A model generated the notes under the pieces. The model was not told the origin of the DNA. It worked only from the letters and a program-made list of their open reading frames with translations, and searched no databases. Shown here one piece after another: positions 9,012-36,586 of a stretch of DNA of 64,000 nt (its first letter is position 1; every line of letters starts with the position of its first letter). The stretch comes from Fischerella sp. CENA71 (GTDB lineage Bacteria; Cyanobacteriota; Cyanobacteriia; Cyanobacteriales; Nostocaceae). The translations under genes were made by a program, and so were the position numbers. Where the stretch lies: NCBI GenBank assembly GCA_024239075.1, contig JANBVI010000027.1, positions 186,001 to 250,000 on the forward strand, written 5' to 3'.

Positions 9012-9186
9012 GGGCATGGGGCACAAACGCGGTGACGCGGTGACGCTGAGAGTAGGAGACGCGGTGAATCAATCAAAAATATTCCCCGTGTCCCCGTGTC
9101 CCCGTGTCCCTGGTCTCCTTTGTCCCCCTTGTCTCTCGTGTCCCCGTGTCCTCGTGTCCCCTTGTCTCCGTATCCCCTTCTCTTTA
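9012..9186. repeat. Intergenic copy of the 'gtccccgtgtcc' GC-rich repeat
   Basis: Left arm made of 'gcggtgacgcggtgacg' units, a short AT core (caaaaatattcc) and a right arm of repeated 'ccgtgtcccc' units ending near 9186. Read on the minus strand it has the order ggacacgggg... aata... caccgcgtctcc, the same order as the copies found inside the oxidoreductase gene at 23172 and inside purL at 35056. It occupies the gap between the convergent SpoIID-domain gene and ald. Confidence 0.8.
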
Positions 9187-9191
9187 ATCCT

Positions 9192-10280
9192 CTACACCAA
9201 GTCAGGAAAAACCTCTTGCACGGCGGGATGTATCAAGCGGTGATTCTGCACATTGACACCTTTGGCTAATGCAGGGTTATTTTTTAGTGCCTCAACTCCC
9301 TGATTTGCTAATTGCACGACGTATGGTAAAGTACTGTTATTAAGTGCCTGAGTTGCCGTCCAAGGAACTGCCCCTGGCATGTTAGGGACACCATAGTGCA
9401 ACACACCCTCCTCGACGTAAACCGGGTTAGTGTGAGATGTTGCCCGCATAGTTTCTACACAGCCACCTTGGTCAACTGCTACATCTACAATCACTGAACC
9501 TGGTTGCATTTGTTTGACTAGTTCGCGAGATACAAGGATTGGTGGTCTCCGTCCAGGTATCAAAACTGCGCCAACTAATAGGTCAGCTTCGCGAACTGCT
9601 GCTTCAATGTAGGCTGAGTTACTGTAAAGTAGCTCTACTCGTGAGCCAAATAGAGTTTCTAAGTAGCTGAGTCGTTCGACATTCACATCCAGAATTTGAA
9701 CGCTAGCTCCCATACCAACTGCTATTCTGGCTGCTTCTGTACCAACTACACCACCACCGAGAATCACTACCCGACCGGGTTTGACTCCAGGGACTCCACC
9801 TAACAGAACACCTCTACCGCCTTGCTGACGTTCGAGAAATCTGGCTCCGAACTGCACCGACAAACGACCAGCGATGACGCTCATCGGTGTTAGCAAGGGC
9901 AATTTGTTGGCGCCTGGTTGTTCGACTGTTTCGTAGGCGATCGCACAAACGCCACTATTCATTAAATTCTCGGTTAAATTCCGACCCGCTGCTAAGTGCA
10001 GATAAGTAAATAAAACCTGCTCTTTTTGTAAAAACTTATACTCTTTTGCTAGTGGTTCTTTAACTTTTACCACTAACTCCTGATTCCAAGCAGCTTCAGG
10101 TGTTGGGACGATTTCTGCACCTGAATTTCTGTAGTCATCATCCGTAAATCCCGCACCTGCGCCTGCTTGAGTTTCTACAAATATATTGTGACCACTTTCT
10201 TTTAGTACCCTGACACTAGAGGGACTCAACCCAACTCGAAACTCCTGGTCTTTAGTTTCTTTGGGAACACCTATATCCAT
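9192..10280 (-). CDS. ald: Alanine dehydrogenase
   Basis: NAD-dependent interconversion of L-alanine with pyruvate and ammonium; in heterocystous cyanobacteria it is used for alanine catabolism and supports diazotrophic growth. The 362-residue length fits the family. Visible signatures: N-terminal [20 protein letters not shown], substrate-side YLHLA, the NAD-binding loop [20 protein letters not shown], and the catalytic-region [13 protein letters not shown] followed by [15 protein letters not shown]. Start at 10280 gives the canonical N-terminus. It converges on the upstream SpoIID-domain gene with a repeat between them. Confidence 0.97.
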
Positions 10281-13256: not shown

Positions 13257-13665
13257 GAAAAAAGATTTTGTTTCTAGGGGGCGTTCTGTGTCTGACTTAA
13301 AAGCTCATTTGGTGCTGACCACAAAGTCCCGCCGTAAGCTGTTCACCAAAGAGATGTTAGACCGCTTGCATGAGATTTTTGAAGACTTACTAGAAAAGTG
13401 GGAGTGCAAGGTAATTGAGTTCAACGGTGAGGAAAATCACGTTCACCTCCTGTTTCAGTACCATCCAGGGGTTGAACTGAGTAAACTAGTCAATAGCATC
13501 AAAACCGTAACCAGTCGTAGGTTACGGTCTGAGTTTGAAAGCAGAGTTGATGAGTTTTATTACAAGGATGTTTTATGGAATGGATCTTACTTCATTGCGT
13601 CCTGTGGAGGGGTTACGGTTTCAGCGTTGAACCGGTACATCGAAAATCAAGATTATTCGTCTTGA
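13255..13665 (+). CDS. tnpA: IS200/IS605-family transposase TnpA (Y1 HUH)
   Basis: 136 residues, full length for the single-strand transposase. The HUH metal-binding motif is ENHVHLLFQY and the catalytic tyrosine lies in LNRYIENQ near the C-terminus; SVSDLKAHLVLTTKSRRK at the N-terminus is family typical. It cuts and joins single-stranded ends at the hairpins during lagging-strand replication. Divergent from the truncated tnpB with no space between them, unlike intact IS605 copies. It may still be active, since the motif residues are present. Confidence 0.93.
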   Translation: MKKDFVSRGRSVSDLKAHLVLTTKSRRKLFTKEMLDRLHEIFEDLLEKWECKVIEFNGEENHVHLLFQYHPGVELSKLVNSIKTVTSRRLRSEFESRVDEFYYKDVLWNGSYFIASCGGVTVSALNRYIENQDYSS

Positions 13666-15300: not shown

Positions 15301-15388
15301 CATAGACACGGGGACACGGAGAGAGGGAGACACTGGGAAAATTTTCTCCGCGTCACCGTGTTTGATTGTCTCCGCGTCCTTTTCATTT
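15301..15388. repeat. Intergenic copy of the GC-rich repeat
   Basis: Order acacggggacacggaga - gggaaaattttctc - ccgcgtcaccgtgtttgattgtctccgcgtcc. The right arm (ctccgcgtcaccg.gt.tg.ttgtctccgcgt) matches the purL internal copy nearly base for base, which ties the intergenic and in-gene copies to one family. It lies between convergent fabG and the glycosyl-1-phosphate transferase gene and overlaps the latter's last codons. Confidence 0.8.
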
Positions 15389-20733: not shown

Positions 20734-21170
20734 TTGGGAAAGAGTAGGCGTAGGCGGTTGCAGATTAGTCAATGTGTGGCTAGTTTGAGGAAAGTCCGGG
20801 CTTCCGAAAGACCAAACTTGCTGGGTAACGCCCAGTGCGAGCGATCGCGAGGATAGTGCCACAGAAAAATACCGCTAATTAGTCATTTGTCAATAGTAAT
20901 TAGTCATTTGTAAAAAACAAAGGACTAATGACAAATAACAAAGGACAAAATTAGTAAGGGTGCAAAGGTGTGGTAAGAGCGCACCAGCAACATCGAGAGG
21001 TGTTGGCTCGGTAAACCCCGGTTGGAAGCAAGGCGAATGGAACTATGGTTGGTCTTTTACCAGTTCCACAGAAAGAGCCGCTAGAGGCGTCTGGTAACAG
21101 TCGTCCCAGATAGATAACCGCCCTCTTGATTTAAGAGAACAGAACCCGGCTTACTACCAACTCTTTCCCA
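20734..21170 (+). ncRNA. rnpB: RNase P RNA (M1 RNA, bacterial type A)
   Basis: Catalytic RNA of RNase P, which matures tRNA 5' ends. Conserved blocks: the 5' end gaggaaagtccgggc, the ggtaagagcgcaccagc block with tgttggctcggtaaacccc, and the 3' block agataaccgccc...acagaacccggctta. The outer stem P1 is formed by ttgggaaagagt and actctttcccaa. Between about 20880 and 20952 the RNA carries short tandem repeats (tagtcatttgt, acaaaggac) at the place of the variable P12 arm, as known for heterocystous cyanobacteria. Ends are set from P1 and may be off by a few bases. Confidence 0.95.
20880..20952 (+). repeat. Short tandem repeats inside rnpB
   Basis: attagtcatttgtc / aattagtcatttgt on one side and acaaaggactaatgacaaataacaaaggac on the other; the two halves are complementary, so the repeat forms an extended hairpin in the P12 region of the RNA. 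Confidence 0.85.
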
Positions 21171-22483: not shown

Positions 22484-22566
22484 GTTGAGACATGAATAAT
22501 ATCGCGTCTCAACTCTTGACTCTTGTACAGACGCGATTAATCGCGTCTCTAATGACTAATGACTAA
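22484..22566 (+). repeat. 'agacgcgattaatcgcgtct' palindrome and taatgac tandem repeat
   Basis: A GTTGAGAC/GTCTCAAC pair (22484-22491 and 22505-22512), then a perfect 20-bp palindrome (22529-22548), then ctaatgactaatgactaatc, whose last atg is the start codon of the next gene at 22559. Confidence 0.75.
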
Positions 22567-23794
22567 TCAAATTAAAATCGCTGTCGTTGGAGTGGGGCGT
22601 TGGGGTGTACATTTGCTGCGGAATTTTCTGGAGCATCCCCAAGTTATAGTTGCAGCCGTGGTAGATCCAAATCCAGAGTGTTTAGCAAAGATAAAACGCC
22701 AATATTTTTCTAATAACACTACAAATAATCATGTCTTCTTTACAACTGAGTGGTCAGAAATTAAACAAATCATAGATTTAGATGCAGTAGTTATTGCTAC
22801 CCCTGCCAGCACACATTATTCCTTAATTACTGACGCCTTAAATTGGGGATACCATGTTTTAGCAGAAAAACCTTTAACTTTAGATCCAACAGAATGCCAT
22901 AAACTTTGCCAGCTAGCTGAAAAACAGCAACGGCAACTTATGGTTGATCATACTTATCTATTTCATCCAGCAGTGGAACGAGGGCAAACTGTTGTTCAAG
23001 CAGGAGAATTAGGAAATTTGCGCTACGGTTATGCTTGTCGTACTCATTTGGGACCAGTTCGCCAAGATGTTGATGCATTATGGGATTTAGCTATTCACGA
23101 TATTGCAATATTCAATGCTTGGTTAGGTCAACAACCAGTAAGTGTACAGGCTTCGGGTAGGGTGTGGCTACAAGGGGGACATGGGGACACGGAGGACACG
23201 GGGATACGGAGATATGGGGACACGGGGAATACAGATGAAATACTTTCCGCGTCACCACCTCTCTCACTCTCCGCGTCACCGCGTCTCCCAACGCCAGGTG
23301 CTACAACAGGGGGAACCCCCGCAACGCACTGGCTCCTCTCCGCGTCTTCTGAAACCGCGTCTTCTTTCACTTCATCAGGTTTAGCTGATCTAGTTTGGGT
23401 GACACTAACTTACGCTAATGGTTTTCAAGCTTATATTCATTTGTGTTGGCTCAATACTGATAAGCAGCGACGTTTAGTGGTTGTGGGTAGTCGAGGTAGT
23501 TTGATTTTTGATGAAATGTCAGCTATATCACCTTTAACGCTGTTGCATGGGGAGTTAGAAGTGCAAGGGAATAGTTATATTCCTATAAATCAAAGCCAAC
23601 AAGTGCTGCAAATTGAAAAAAATGAACCATTAAAACGAGTGTGCGATCGCTTTGTTAGCTGTGTCCACAATAATAGTCCTTGTCCAGTTTCATCTGGTTG
23701 GGTGGGGACACAGTTAGTAAATATTCTCGCTGCTCTGACACAATCGCTTAACCAGGGTGGCAAACCTGTTGTACTGAACACAAATCAGTACTGA
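22559..23794 (+). CDS. Gfo/Idh/MocA-family oxidoreductase with an in-frame repeat insertion
   Basis: 411-residue NAD(P)-dependent sugar-type oxidoreductase. N-terminal Rossmann domain with IAVVGVGRWGVHLLRNF, then VVIATPASTHY and the family lysine motif AEKPLTLD; the substrate domain includes HTYLFHPA and WDLAIHDIAIF. Around residues 205-271 (about 23172-23370) a foreign low-complexity block is spliced in, reading [13 protein letters not shown] and ending SASSETASSF; after it the normal sequence resumes with LVWVTLTYANGFQAYIH. The block is a copy of a repeat scattered between genes and also present in purL. The substrate is unknown. The 3' end overlaps the convergent sensor kinase gene by 47 bases. 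The start codon itself lies in a taatgac tandem repeat. Confidence 0.9.
   Translation: MTNQIKIAVVGVGRWGVHLLRNFLEHPQVIVAAVVDPNPECLAKIKRQYFSNNTTNNHVFFTTEWSEIKQIIDLDAVVIATPASTHYSLITDALNWGYHVLAEKPLTLDPTECHKLCQLAEKQQRQLMVDHTYLFHPAVERGQTVVQAGELGNLRYGYACRTHLGPVRQDVDALWDLAIHDIAIFNAWLGQQPVSVQASGRVWLQGGHGDTEDTGIRRYGDTGNTDEILSASPPLSLSASPRLPTPGATTGGTPATHWLLSASSETASSFTSSGLADLVWVTLTYANGFQAYIHLCWLNTDKQRRLVVVGSRGSLIFDEMSAISPLTLLHGELEVQGNSYIPINQSQQVLQIEKNEPLKRVCDRFVSCVHNNSPCPVSSGWVGTQLVNILAALTQSLNQGGKPVVLNTNQY
23172..23370 (+). repeat. GC-rich palindromic repeat inside the oxidoreductase CDS
   Basis: About 200 bases: ggggacacgg-type units, core ggggaatacagatgaaatac, then ccgcgtcacc units, an acgccaggtgctac...gcaacgcactggctcc block shared with 10515-10590, and tctccgcgtcttctgaaaccgcgt. 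The length keeps the reading frame open. Shares its core and its end with 35056-35178 in purL. Confidence 0.85.
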
Positions 23795-34123: not shown

Positions 34124-36586
34124 TTAACGTTCTTGGGTATTGGTGTAAATGGCTAAACGTTTTGCGATCGCCTTTGAGTAGCGATCGCCCATCTCCTCAA
34201 TCCTAGCGTTGATTAAAGCTTGACCATCAGAGGTTAAAACCCGCAACCCGATTTCGGAATTCCCAACTTTACCTAGTTTGTGCCAGTTTTGCTCCAGGTT
34301 TTGCTGTAAGTAAGATTCCCAATTTTCTTGTTGTTCTGGTGCTACAGAAACTACGATCCGTCCACCACCTTCACCAAACAATACTTCGTCTAGACGCTGC
34401 ATATCATTTGCAGGTAACTTGAAGCTAATTTCTGCACCCAATTTACCTGTGATACAACTTTCTGCAAGAGCAATTACCAAACCACCTTCAGCACAATCAT
34501 GAGCTGAACGTACCCAACCTTGGCGAATTCCCTCGCGACAAGCTTTTTGTACCCGTCTTTCCCAGTCAAAATCCACTCTTGGCGGTTTCCCTGCAACAGT
34601 ACCATGAATACTGGCTAAGTATTCTGAGCCACCTAAAGTTAAATCAGAAGATAATCCACCTAACAAATAAATCACATCGCCTGGTGTCTGCCAAGCTTGA
34701 CCACAAATTTTAGTGAGATCGGGAATTAATCCCACCATACCCACAACCGGAGTAGGATAAATAGGCTGGGGATTACCTTGAGAATCAAGAGTTTCATTGT
34801 ACAACGAAACATTACCCCCAGTTACCGGGGTTGCTAATTCCCGACAACCTTCAGCCAAGCCACGACAAGCTTCTGCTAATTGCCAATAACCAATTGGTTT
34901 TTCCGGACTACCAAAATTGAGGTTATCTGTCACCGCTAGAGGTTCTGCACCCACACAGCTGAGATTGCGTGCTGCTTCTGCGACTACCGCTTTTGCCCCT
35001 TCGTAAGGATCAAGATAAACGTAGCGGGGATTACAATCGACTGTCGCCGCAACAGCGCGTTGGGAAGAAGACGCGGTTTCAGAAAACGCGGAGACAACCA
35101 GACGCGGTGACGCGGAGAGTATTTCATCTGTATTCCCCGCGTCGCCGCGTCGCCGTGTCCCCGTGTCCTCTTTCTCTAGTGGACGCAAACGAATCACTGC
35201 AGCATCCGCACCACCAGGAAACATTACTGTATTGTTCTGGACTTGATGATCATACTGGCGATAGACCCAGCTTTTAGAAGCAATTGTGGGAGTATCTAGC
35301 AAAAGCAACAAAATATCATTCCAACTATGCAGTTTTGCTTTAATTTCTATGCCACCAGTTGTACATGCAGGTAAAGTATCTGGTGTCCATTCCCAGGCTT
35401 GACGCACATATTTCGGTAGTTCTGCGAGTAATTCCCTCTCATACAAAGGTGTATTTTCTGCTAAAGCTGTCGCAGGAATTTCGGCAGCGATTTTACCTTG
35501 AAATAGAATCCGCACAACTGGTTCGGCAATGACCGTACCAGCAACAACCGCATGAAGTCCCCAACGATGGAAAATATCAATTAACTCTTGTTCCCGTCCT
35601 TTTTGGGCTACAAATAGCATTCTCTCTTGAGATTCGGAAAGCAGATATTCATAGGGAACCATTCCGAGTTCGCGCACGGGTACTTTATCTAAATCAAATT
35701 CAATCCCTACACCACCTTTGGCTGCCATTTCTGAGGTTGAACAGGTGATCCCAGCAGCACCCATATCTTGGGCAGCAACAACTATACCTGTCTTAAAAGC
35801 TTCCAGACAAGCTTCAATTAAAGACTTTTCCAAAAACGGATCACCGACTTGCACCGCCGGGCGATCATCCATTGATGCATCACTGAGTTCAGCACTAGCA
35901 AAACTTGCGCCCCCCATACCATCGCGTCCGGTGGTGGAACCGACATATAATACAGGATTGCCAATGCCAGATGCCCCAGATTTGACAATTTCGGACGTTT
36001 CCATTAATCCCAGAGCCATAACGTTGACTAAGGGATTGCCAGAGTAAGCAGGGTCAAAGTAAACTTCGCCGCCAACGGTGGGTACTCCCACACTATTACC
36101 ATAATGAGCAATTCCTGCAATAACGCCGCTAAACAGCCTTTGTGTTTTGGGGTCTTCTAGAGAACCAAAACGGAGGGAATTTAAAATGGCTATGGGACGC
36201 GCGCCCATTGTAAATATATCACGTAGAATCCCTCCAACACCAGTAGCGGCACCTTGAAAGGGTTCAACTGCGCTGGGATGGTTGTGAGATTCTATTTTAA
36301 AAGCCAGTCGTAGTCCATCACCTAAGTCTACAACTCCGGCATTTTCACCAGGACCAACTAGAATGCGATCGCCTGTGGTAGGAAATTGTTTCAGTAAAGG
36401 GCGAGAATTTTTATAACAACAATGCTCCGACCACATGACCCCAAACATACCTAGTTCAGCTTTGTTGGGGTGACGCCCTAGTCGTCGGACTATTTCTTGG
36501 TATTCTTCAAGTTTAAGACCTTCAGATGCAATTTCTTCAGGAGAAAAGGGAGGTTCGCAAGCGGTGGTCATGGAAGTATGCACCAA
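34124..36586 (-). CDS. purL: Phosphoribosylformylglycinamidine synthase PurL, with in-frame repeat
   Basis: Fourth step of purine synthesis: FGAR plus glutamine plus ATP to FGAM, working with PurQ and PurS as the small-PurL type. 820 residues against the usual 770-790. Signatures: [48 protein letters not shown], and C-terminal [18 protein letters not shown]. Near residues 470-510 (35056-35178) an extra block with [11 protein letters not shown] and SETASS is inserted between RLRPLEK and [14 protein letters not shown], a linker between two domains. It is a copy of the intergenic repeat. The rest is intact, so the gene is probably functional. Confidence 0.97.
35056..35178 (-). repeat. GC-rich palindromic repeat inside purL
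   Basis: Read on the coding strand: ggacacggggacacggcgac gcggcgacgcgg, core ggggaatacagatgaaatac, then tctccgcgtcaccgcgtctgg, ttgtctccgcgttttctg, aaaccgcgt. About 123 bases, 41 codons, frame open. Same core and ends as 23172-23370; right arm equals the intergenic copy at 15301-15388. Confidence 0.87.

Follow-up and report, generated by a model that had tools for sequence, protein, structure and literature searches.

A hairpin-forming repeat lies in frame in the PurL linker of a Fischerella genome and, in unrelated genes, nearly always in one frame class

The purL gene of Fischerella sp. CENA71 carries, in frame, a copy of a dispersed palindromic repeat that recurs within unrelated genes of this genome and its relatives and is read, in 49 of 50 distinct in-gene copies, in a single class of reading frame. 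The repeat forms a hairpin, occurs in many copies, occupies the same PurL site in two genomes, and is present or absent at corresponding sites of sister species. The phenomenon is real and general, and is best read as a set of coding palindromes that are tolerated and follow a strict frame rule. The window is the whole stretch of DNA that was analysed (64,000 nucleotides of contig JANBVI010000027.1, positions 186,001 to 250,000), and coordinates given without a prefix refer to it. It contains the following features:

34124–36586, minus strand: purL ORF with the repeat (ORF list; NCBIfam PurL match).
35068–35172, minus strand: copy of the hairpin repeat, lying in frame within the linker between PurL domains (profile match, 99.9 bits; hairpin z −5.7).
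22559–23794, plus strand: Gfo/Idh-type oxidoreductase ORF with a second in-frame copy (best family below curated cut-off).
23192–23281, plus strand: the second in-frame copy, in the same frame as the purL copy (profile match; site empty in congener G003).
9030–9118, minus strand: repeat copy outside genes (profile match).
15305–15384, plus strand: repeat copy between two convergent genes (profile match).

The purL ORF starts with TTG and encodes 820 residues, the length originally predicted; the NCBIfam PurL model matches the scanned part of the protein with E = 1.5e-249. Its repeat copy is the top-scoring one of the examined sequence in the profile search. The bounds first proposed, 35056–35178, do enclose a repeat and are a few bases too wide on each side. 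Between RLRP and AVAATVDC the linker of the organism's own genome (G000, 7.47 Mb) has 41 residues, compared with 9–79 (median 16) in the 74 of 80 named relatives with a linker parsable from RLRP to [AGS]VAATVDC. Since the 41 residues are the whole linker, the net gain is about 25–30 residues; an insert is present, as had been claimed, and the figure of some 41 extra codons was too high. A match to Thermus PurL (3VIU) leaves 2 residues between the two halves of the protein there versus 40 in G000. Only two of 30 aligned orthologues, those of G000 and its congener G004, have this repeat at the site. The segment is thus not universal in cyanobacterial PurL, the comparison that the original prediction had put forward as a check, and its presence in the G004 orthologue means that the G000 insert is not an assembly error. 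Judged by eye, the linkers of many relatives hold different repeat-like text: NLKS/NPKS runs in many Nostoc, a GGQ run in a Peltigera cyanobiont (L086) and, in other cyanobacterial orders, the unrelated repeat peptides QASRL...GQDAHPTR (L131, L134, L135) and PPLAKGG/SPPLSKGGPGG (Microcoleus-like L143, L145). Together, the spread of lengths, the varied text and the Thermus comparison indicate that the PurL interdomain linker collects repeats. An AlphaFold model of PurL (25 sequences) had a mean pLDDT of 40 and was set aside.

The repeat is ∼ 90–107 bp long (profile consensus 107 nt) and is built of 8-bp units (GGGGACAC and its variants) that run up to an AT-rich centre, GAATACAGATGAAATAC in the purL copy, and recur in inverse order beyond it. 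The whole element is an imperfect palindrome, so inverted terminal repeats are present. Folded as RNA, the purL copy gives one long hairpin of −60.8 kcal/mol (z = −5.7; 0 of 200 shuffles as stable), and the 93-nt consensus folded as DNA gives z −4.6. Rfam, searched at gathering thresholds, has no family at the repeat.

At E ≤ 0.001 there are at least 52 matches in G000, with 40 of 201 first-look candidates scored. We examined 792 kb of this genome, mostly centred on matches, plus the window; 63 copies reach at least 40 bits and 35 of them lie inside ORFs with coding flanks, in 32 ORFs (33 called by script and two by hand, in PriA, L043:8896, and at L057:7790). Copies under 40 bits were left unclassed (27 of 90 places in G000, 11 of 34 in G004). 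G004, one of four congeners compared (G001–G004), was sampled as 1.2 Mb in one piece and yielded 23 copies, 12 in genes. With four in-gene loci in common, the two genomes contribute 43 distinct copies. In G005, from another genus of the same family, seven of 21 copies on 20 stretches centred on matches are in genes, and none of the proteins concerned matches the script-called set at 1e-30. The total is 50 distinct in-gene copies in 46 genes of three genomes and two genera, a number that may include non-independent copies, since four genes have two each. Hosts named by NCBIfam among 30 scanned proteins include PurL, PriA, LysA, dihydroorotase, a heavy-metal P-type ATPase, gamma-glutamyltransferase, Pnkp, PfaA-like synthases, an NHLM exporter, an NnrE-type epimerase and several histidine kinases; RecG (part scanned) and a CoxB-like subunit fall below the cut-off, and three proteins (L042, L065, L062) have no family at E ≤ 1e-8. 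The view that the repeat is dispersed and lies in frame, in a linker between domains that is able to take an insert, is borne out.

Comparison of the peptides also confirmed that the copy in the oxidoreductase, an ORF with a further repeat fragment at 23337–23366, has the same orientation and frame as the purL copy. Some in-gene copies show tandem amplification of a 42-bp unit (G000:C74:150920–151136; L059 ∼ 9546–9651), which keeps the frame (14 residues per unit). By eye, many non-genic copies of G000 and G004 are embedded in longer inverted arrays of heptamers like GGGATCGGGGATT; in-gene copies mostly lack these. Beyond these genomes, at least 12 of 40, G000 included, have a match at E ≤ 0.001 (93-nt query; at most 22 candidates scored per genome): all five of the genus, G005 richly and, among the candidates scored, six others more weakly.

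Frames were named by the peptide they encode; the SASP frame and its mirror under the palindrome symmetry together form class I (the class was assigned from the peptide, not by script, for PriA (L043), L057:7790 and the seven G005 copies). In G000, the core comes out as SASPRL or a variant in every one of the 31 in-gene copies with the same orientation (30 established by script, one from the peptide). Three of the four opposite-orientation copies are in the mirror frame, with a peptide like GDAES...[FP][PS][AV]SP, and the fourth, in gamma-glutamyltransferase, is outside class I. The 12 in-gene copies of G004 behave alike: seven have the same orientation, all in frame, and the five opposite ones are four mirror copies plus the gamma-glutamyltransferase orthologue. 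Class I accounts for 42 of the 43 distinct G000 and G004 copies and, by peptide, for 7/7 in G005, hence for 49/50 overall, and the expectation that the same frame would be found again and again held. The repeat also occurs in the mirror frame in a MutS-like protein (named from its residues; G004:C1:674722–674840). A fixed orientation was considered as well and dropped: G000 has 31 same versus 4 opposite, but its copies were chosen for resembling the purL one, and the one-piece G004 sample has 7 versus 5. As the repeat is palindromic, some orientation assignments are weak (e.g. 68.9 versus 65.0 bits).

At 21 sites compared with congeners, the loop is empty, or carries the same repeat, or carries another (GGQGGQ, GIGDRG, NAQCPMP). 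The site in the ZntA-like ATPase is empty in both G003 and G002, that in the oxidoreductase is empty in G003 and that in the CoxB-like gene in G004; the NHLM, ACP-region, LpxB and L067 sites were queried and left out of the alignments with relatives. Neither a target-site duplication nor a clean insertion junction was seen by eye at eight sites DNA-aligned with relatives, all of which have diverged, and the repeat stands in the position of ∼ 12 (ATPase) and ∼ 25 (CoxB-like) other bases in the relatives. Because no clean junction was seen, insertion as one unit is what we infer. At repeat loops, LdcA of G003 (L215; G003:C8/C1, G003:C1:2025700–2027500) and an ArnT-like gene of G002 (L238; G002:C79:3600–5700) are each broken into two frames that overlap. 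In G003 the ArnT-like gene is also split at the loop (L205; G003:C1:3373300–3375900), beside VSYTHLDVYKRQ, which is presumably a sequencing artefact; draft assemblies can err at such places. No split genes were found among the copies classed as non-genic when these were compared against 2 Mb. In the unselected G004 sample, copies are under-represented in genes (12/23 versus 79% coding, P = 0.004).

On the strength of these sequences, we think it likely that the repeats are tolerated mobile coding palindromes whose frame rule is set by selection after arrival, a way of working like that of the Rickettsia palindromic elements (RPE). Copies would arrive at many places, in many frames and in both orientations. 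Most in-gene arrivals would be lost, and the survivors would be those that leave the gene open with the palindrome read in one frame. This frame, the same from either end, would yield a slightly acidic peptide rich in Ser, Asp, Gly and Thr, whereas the other often-open frame would yield a strongly basic one. A survivor would then drift nearly freely. In purL, a copy would have entered the loose interdomain linker before G000 and G004 separated and, as the open frames suggest, would form part of the translated PurL as a loop that is polar and probably unstructured. In-gene peptides have a mean charge of −2 and 18% hydrophobic residues in the frame used, versus about +6 and 25–31% in class II. 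The contrast is smaller outside genes (+0.7 versus +2.9 and +4.1) and may thus follow in part from selection inside genes. Peptide character is a possible cause of the frame rule, which is stricter than this filtering account fully explains.

The repeat could instead be a mobile palindrome that has itself been shaped by passage through genes, entering either way, being read as a mild spacer and having genes as its lasting reservoir; we regard this as conceivable but doubtful. Since its open frame looks the same from both ends, such an element could be read through whichever way round it enters a gene. The stop codons of 32 non-genic copies (not counting seven of G000 that lie at the edges of genes) bear on this. 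There are 11 and 13 stops in the two class I frames, 20 and 45 in class II, 36 and 36 in class III, and 28.7 ± 5.1 per frame in dinucleotide shuffles. These non-genic copies therefore do not have stops as often in this frame as in the others, in line with what the original prediction required. The few class I stops outside genes fit a palindrome shaped by genes; shared descent could give the same, and because the copies share one ancestor they are not 32 independent facts, which weakens the test.

Alternatively, a mobilizing process might recognize a target of fixed codon phase, so that copies enter already in frame. This would accommodate a 49/50 rule stricter than stops predict, and a Lys, Glu, Gln or Asn codon stands just before GAG-GAC in many in-gene copies. 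However, no target motif or duplication is visible at the compared sites, both orientations occur (7 versus 5 in the unselected sample), and relatives' genes are broken by repeats at the same loops. We consider insertion of this kind improbable.

We give equally little credence to a functional insert, kept because its peptide or mRNA hairpin tunes PurL or its expression. Hairpins do stay strong within genes (z below −2 in 39/47 in-gene copies versus 24/32 outside genes, by a cruder shuffle). Over 12 loci with the repeat in the orthologue (the gamma-glutamyltransferase pair left out), the pooled dN/dS of the insert is 0.72 (bootstrap 0.53–1.03; single loci 0.18 to 1.37) versus 0.13 in the flanks, a value that leaves room for weak constraint if dN/dS is taken to be below 1. 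A ratio near 0.7 nonetheless speaks against function, as do the differences between the G000 and G004 purL inserts (three non-synonymous, one synonymous), the other species with no insert or with unrelated text, and the occurrence of the same insert in unrelated enzymes. The insert peptide evolves nearly freely. Together with the depletion of copies in genes and the split LdcA and ArnT-like genes of relatives, this leaves the original suggestion, that gene-sparing insertion is itself selected for, unsupported; removal of harmful copies once they have arrived is sufficient to explain the pattern.

It is very unlikely that in-frame survival is nothing special, a chance outcome for a GC-rich repeat with few stops. 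Frames of class I, II and III are open in 67%, 45% and 27% of the 32 non-genic copies, so the first two are indeed often readable. Yet survival proportional to openness predicts 48% class I where 42/43 is seen (P = 1e-12), and a stricter null, with class II as open as in the in-gene copies and class I always open, gives P = 3e-9. Class II is open in 30/47 in-gene copies on one strand and 23/47 on the other, but only one of 50 loci lies outside class I. That the segment is removed from the RNA or skipped by the ribosome, giving a protein that lacks it, is scarcely credible: the repeat is a strong hairpin and bypassed hairpins exist in some mitochondria, but a removed segment needs no open frame, and 38/38 same-orientation in-gene copies are free of stops in the frame used.

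Among known systems, RPE are the nearest case (PMC2229807, PMC10969869, PMC6649704). Two of these reports describe RPE as hairpin repeats of 105–146 bp, intergenic as well as in frame in unrelated protein genes, with one RPE-carrying host enzyme shown to be made and active (PMC2229807, PMC10969869). The Fischerella element is likewise a repeat of about this size that folds into one long hairpin, and its copies too are found outside genes as well as in frame within unrelated protein genes, a likeness in size, fold and sites at the level of description. It differs in belonging to another phylum and in that many of its loops are common to unrelated repeat families; beside this comparison stands its frame, the same from either end of the palindrome. 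The host being a cyanobacterium, we do not file the repeat as an RPE family.

Small repeats with open frames fused to genes are also described for the archaeon Methanocaldococcus and for the enterobacterial ERIC and RU elements (PMC2229807); the open frames are the same feature, the hosts are different, and the likeness again lies in the description. The cyanobacterial MITEs (Nezha; MITEb and MITEe of Anabaena PCC 7120) are described as small repeats of non-coding origin with open frames (PMC10969869). They resemble our element in being small, open and cyanobacterial. Of the features that mark a MITE, the Fischerella repeat has inverted terminal repeats but no visible target-site duplication (eight diverged sites, by eye).

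REP/REPIN sequences are 20–40 bp palindromes that have a GTAG-type tag and go with a Y1 transposase of the RAYT type. The element is longer, and its consensus starts with AAAGAGGACACGG. Y1_Tnp has two matches in G000 at the threshold used, of which one is an IS200-like Y1 transposase gene in the window (13285–13650). The STRR (short tandemly repeated repetitive sequences) of heterocystous cyanobacteria are heptamers that are also reported inside rnpB. They are similar in being short dispersed units in tolerant loops of essential genes, and differ in being heptamers, in contrast to an 8-mer hairpin in protein genes here; within each arm the 8-mers are arranged in tandem, with their order inverted from one side to the other. 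In the window, the gene for RNase P RNA (rnpB, 20740–21169; Rfam RF00010, 257 bits) has an inserted hairpin at ∼ 20877–20949 from a different repeat family (TTAGTCATTTGT/ACAAATGACTAA), a further case of a repeat within an essential gene. No title or abstract in the literature searched, which left out most subscription papers, shows in-frame repeats in proteins of cyanobacteria.

Rickettsia is the best-known source of palindromic repeats lying in frame; the present ones occur in housekeeping genes of free-living multicellular cyanobacteria. Sister species with filled, empty and differently filled sites make the gain of disordered protein segments, and survival in one frame, directly testable. 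Such inserts should be expected, and masked, when genomes of these genera are annotated or their gene phylogenies are built.
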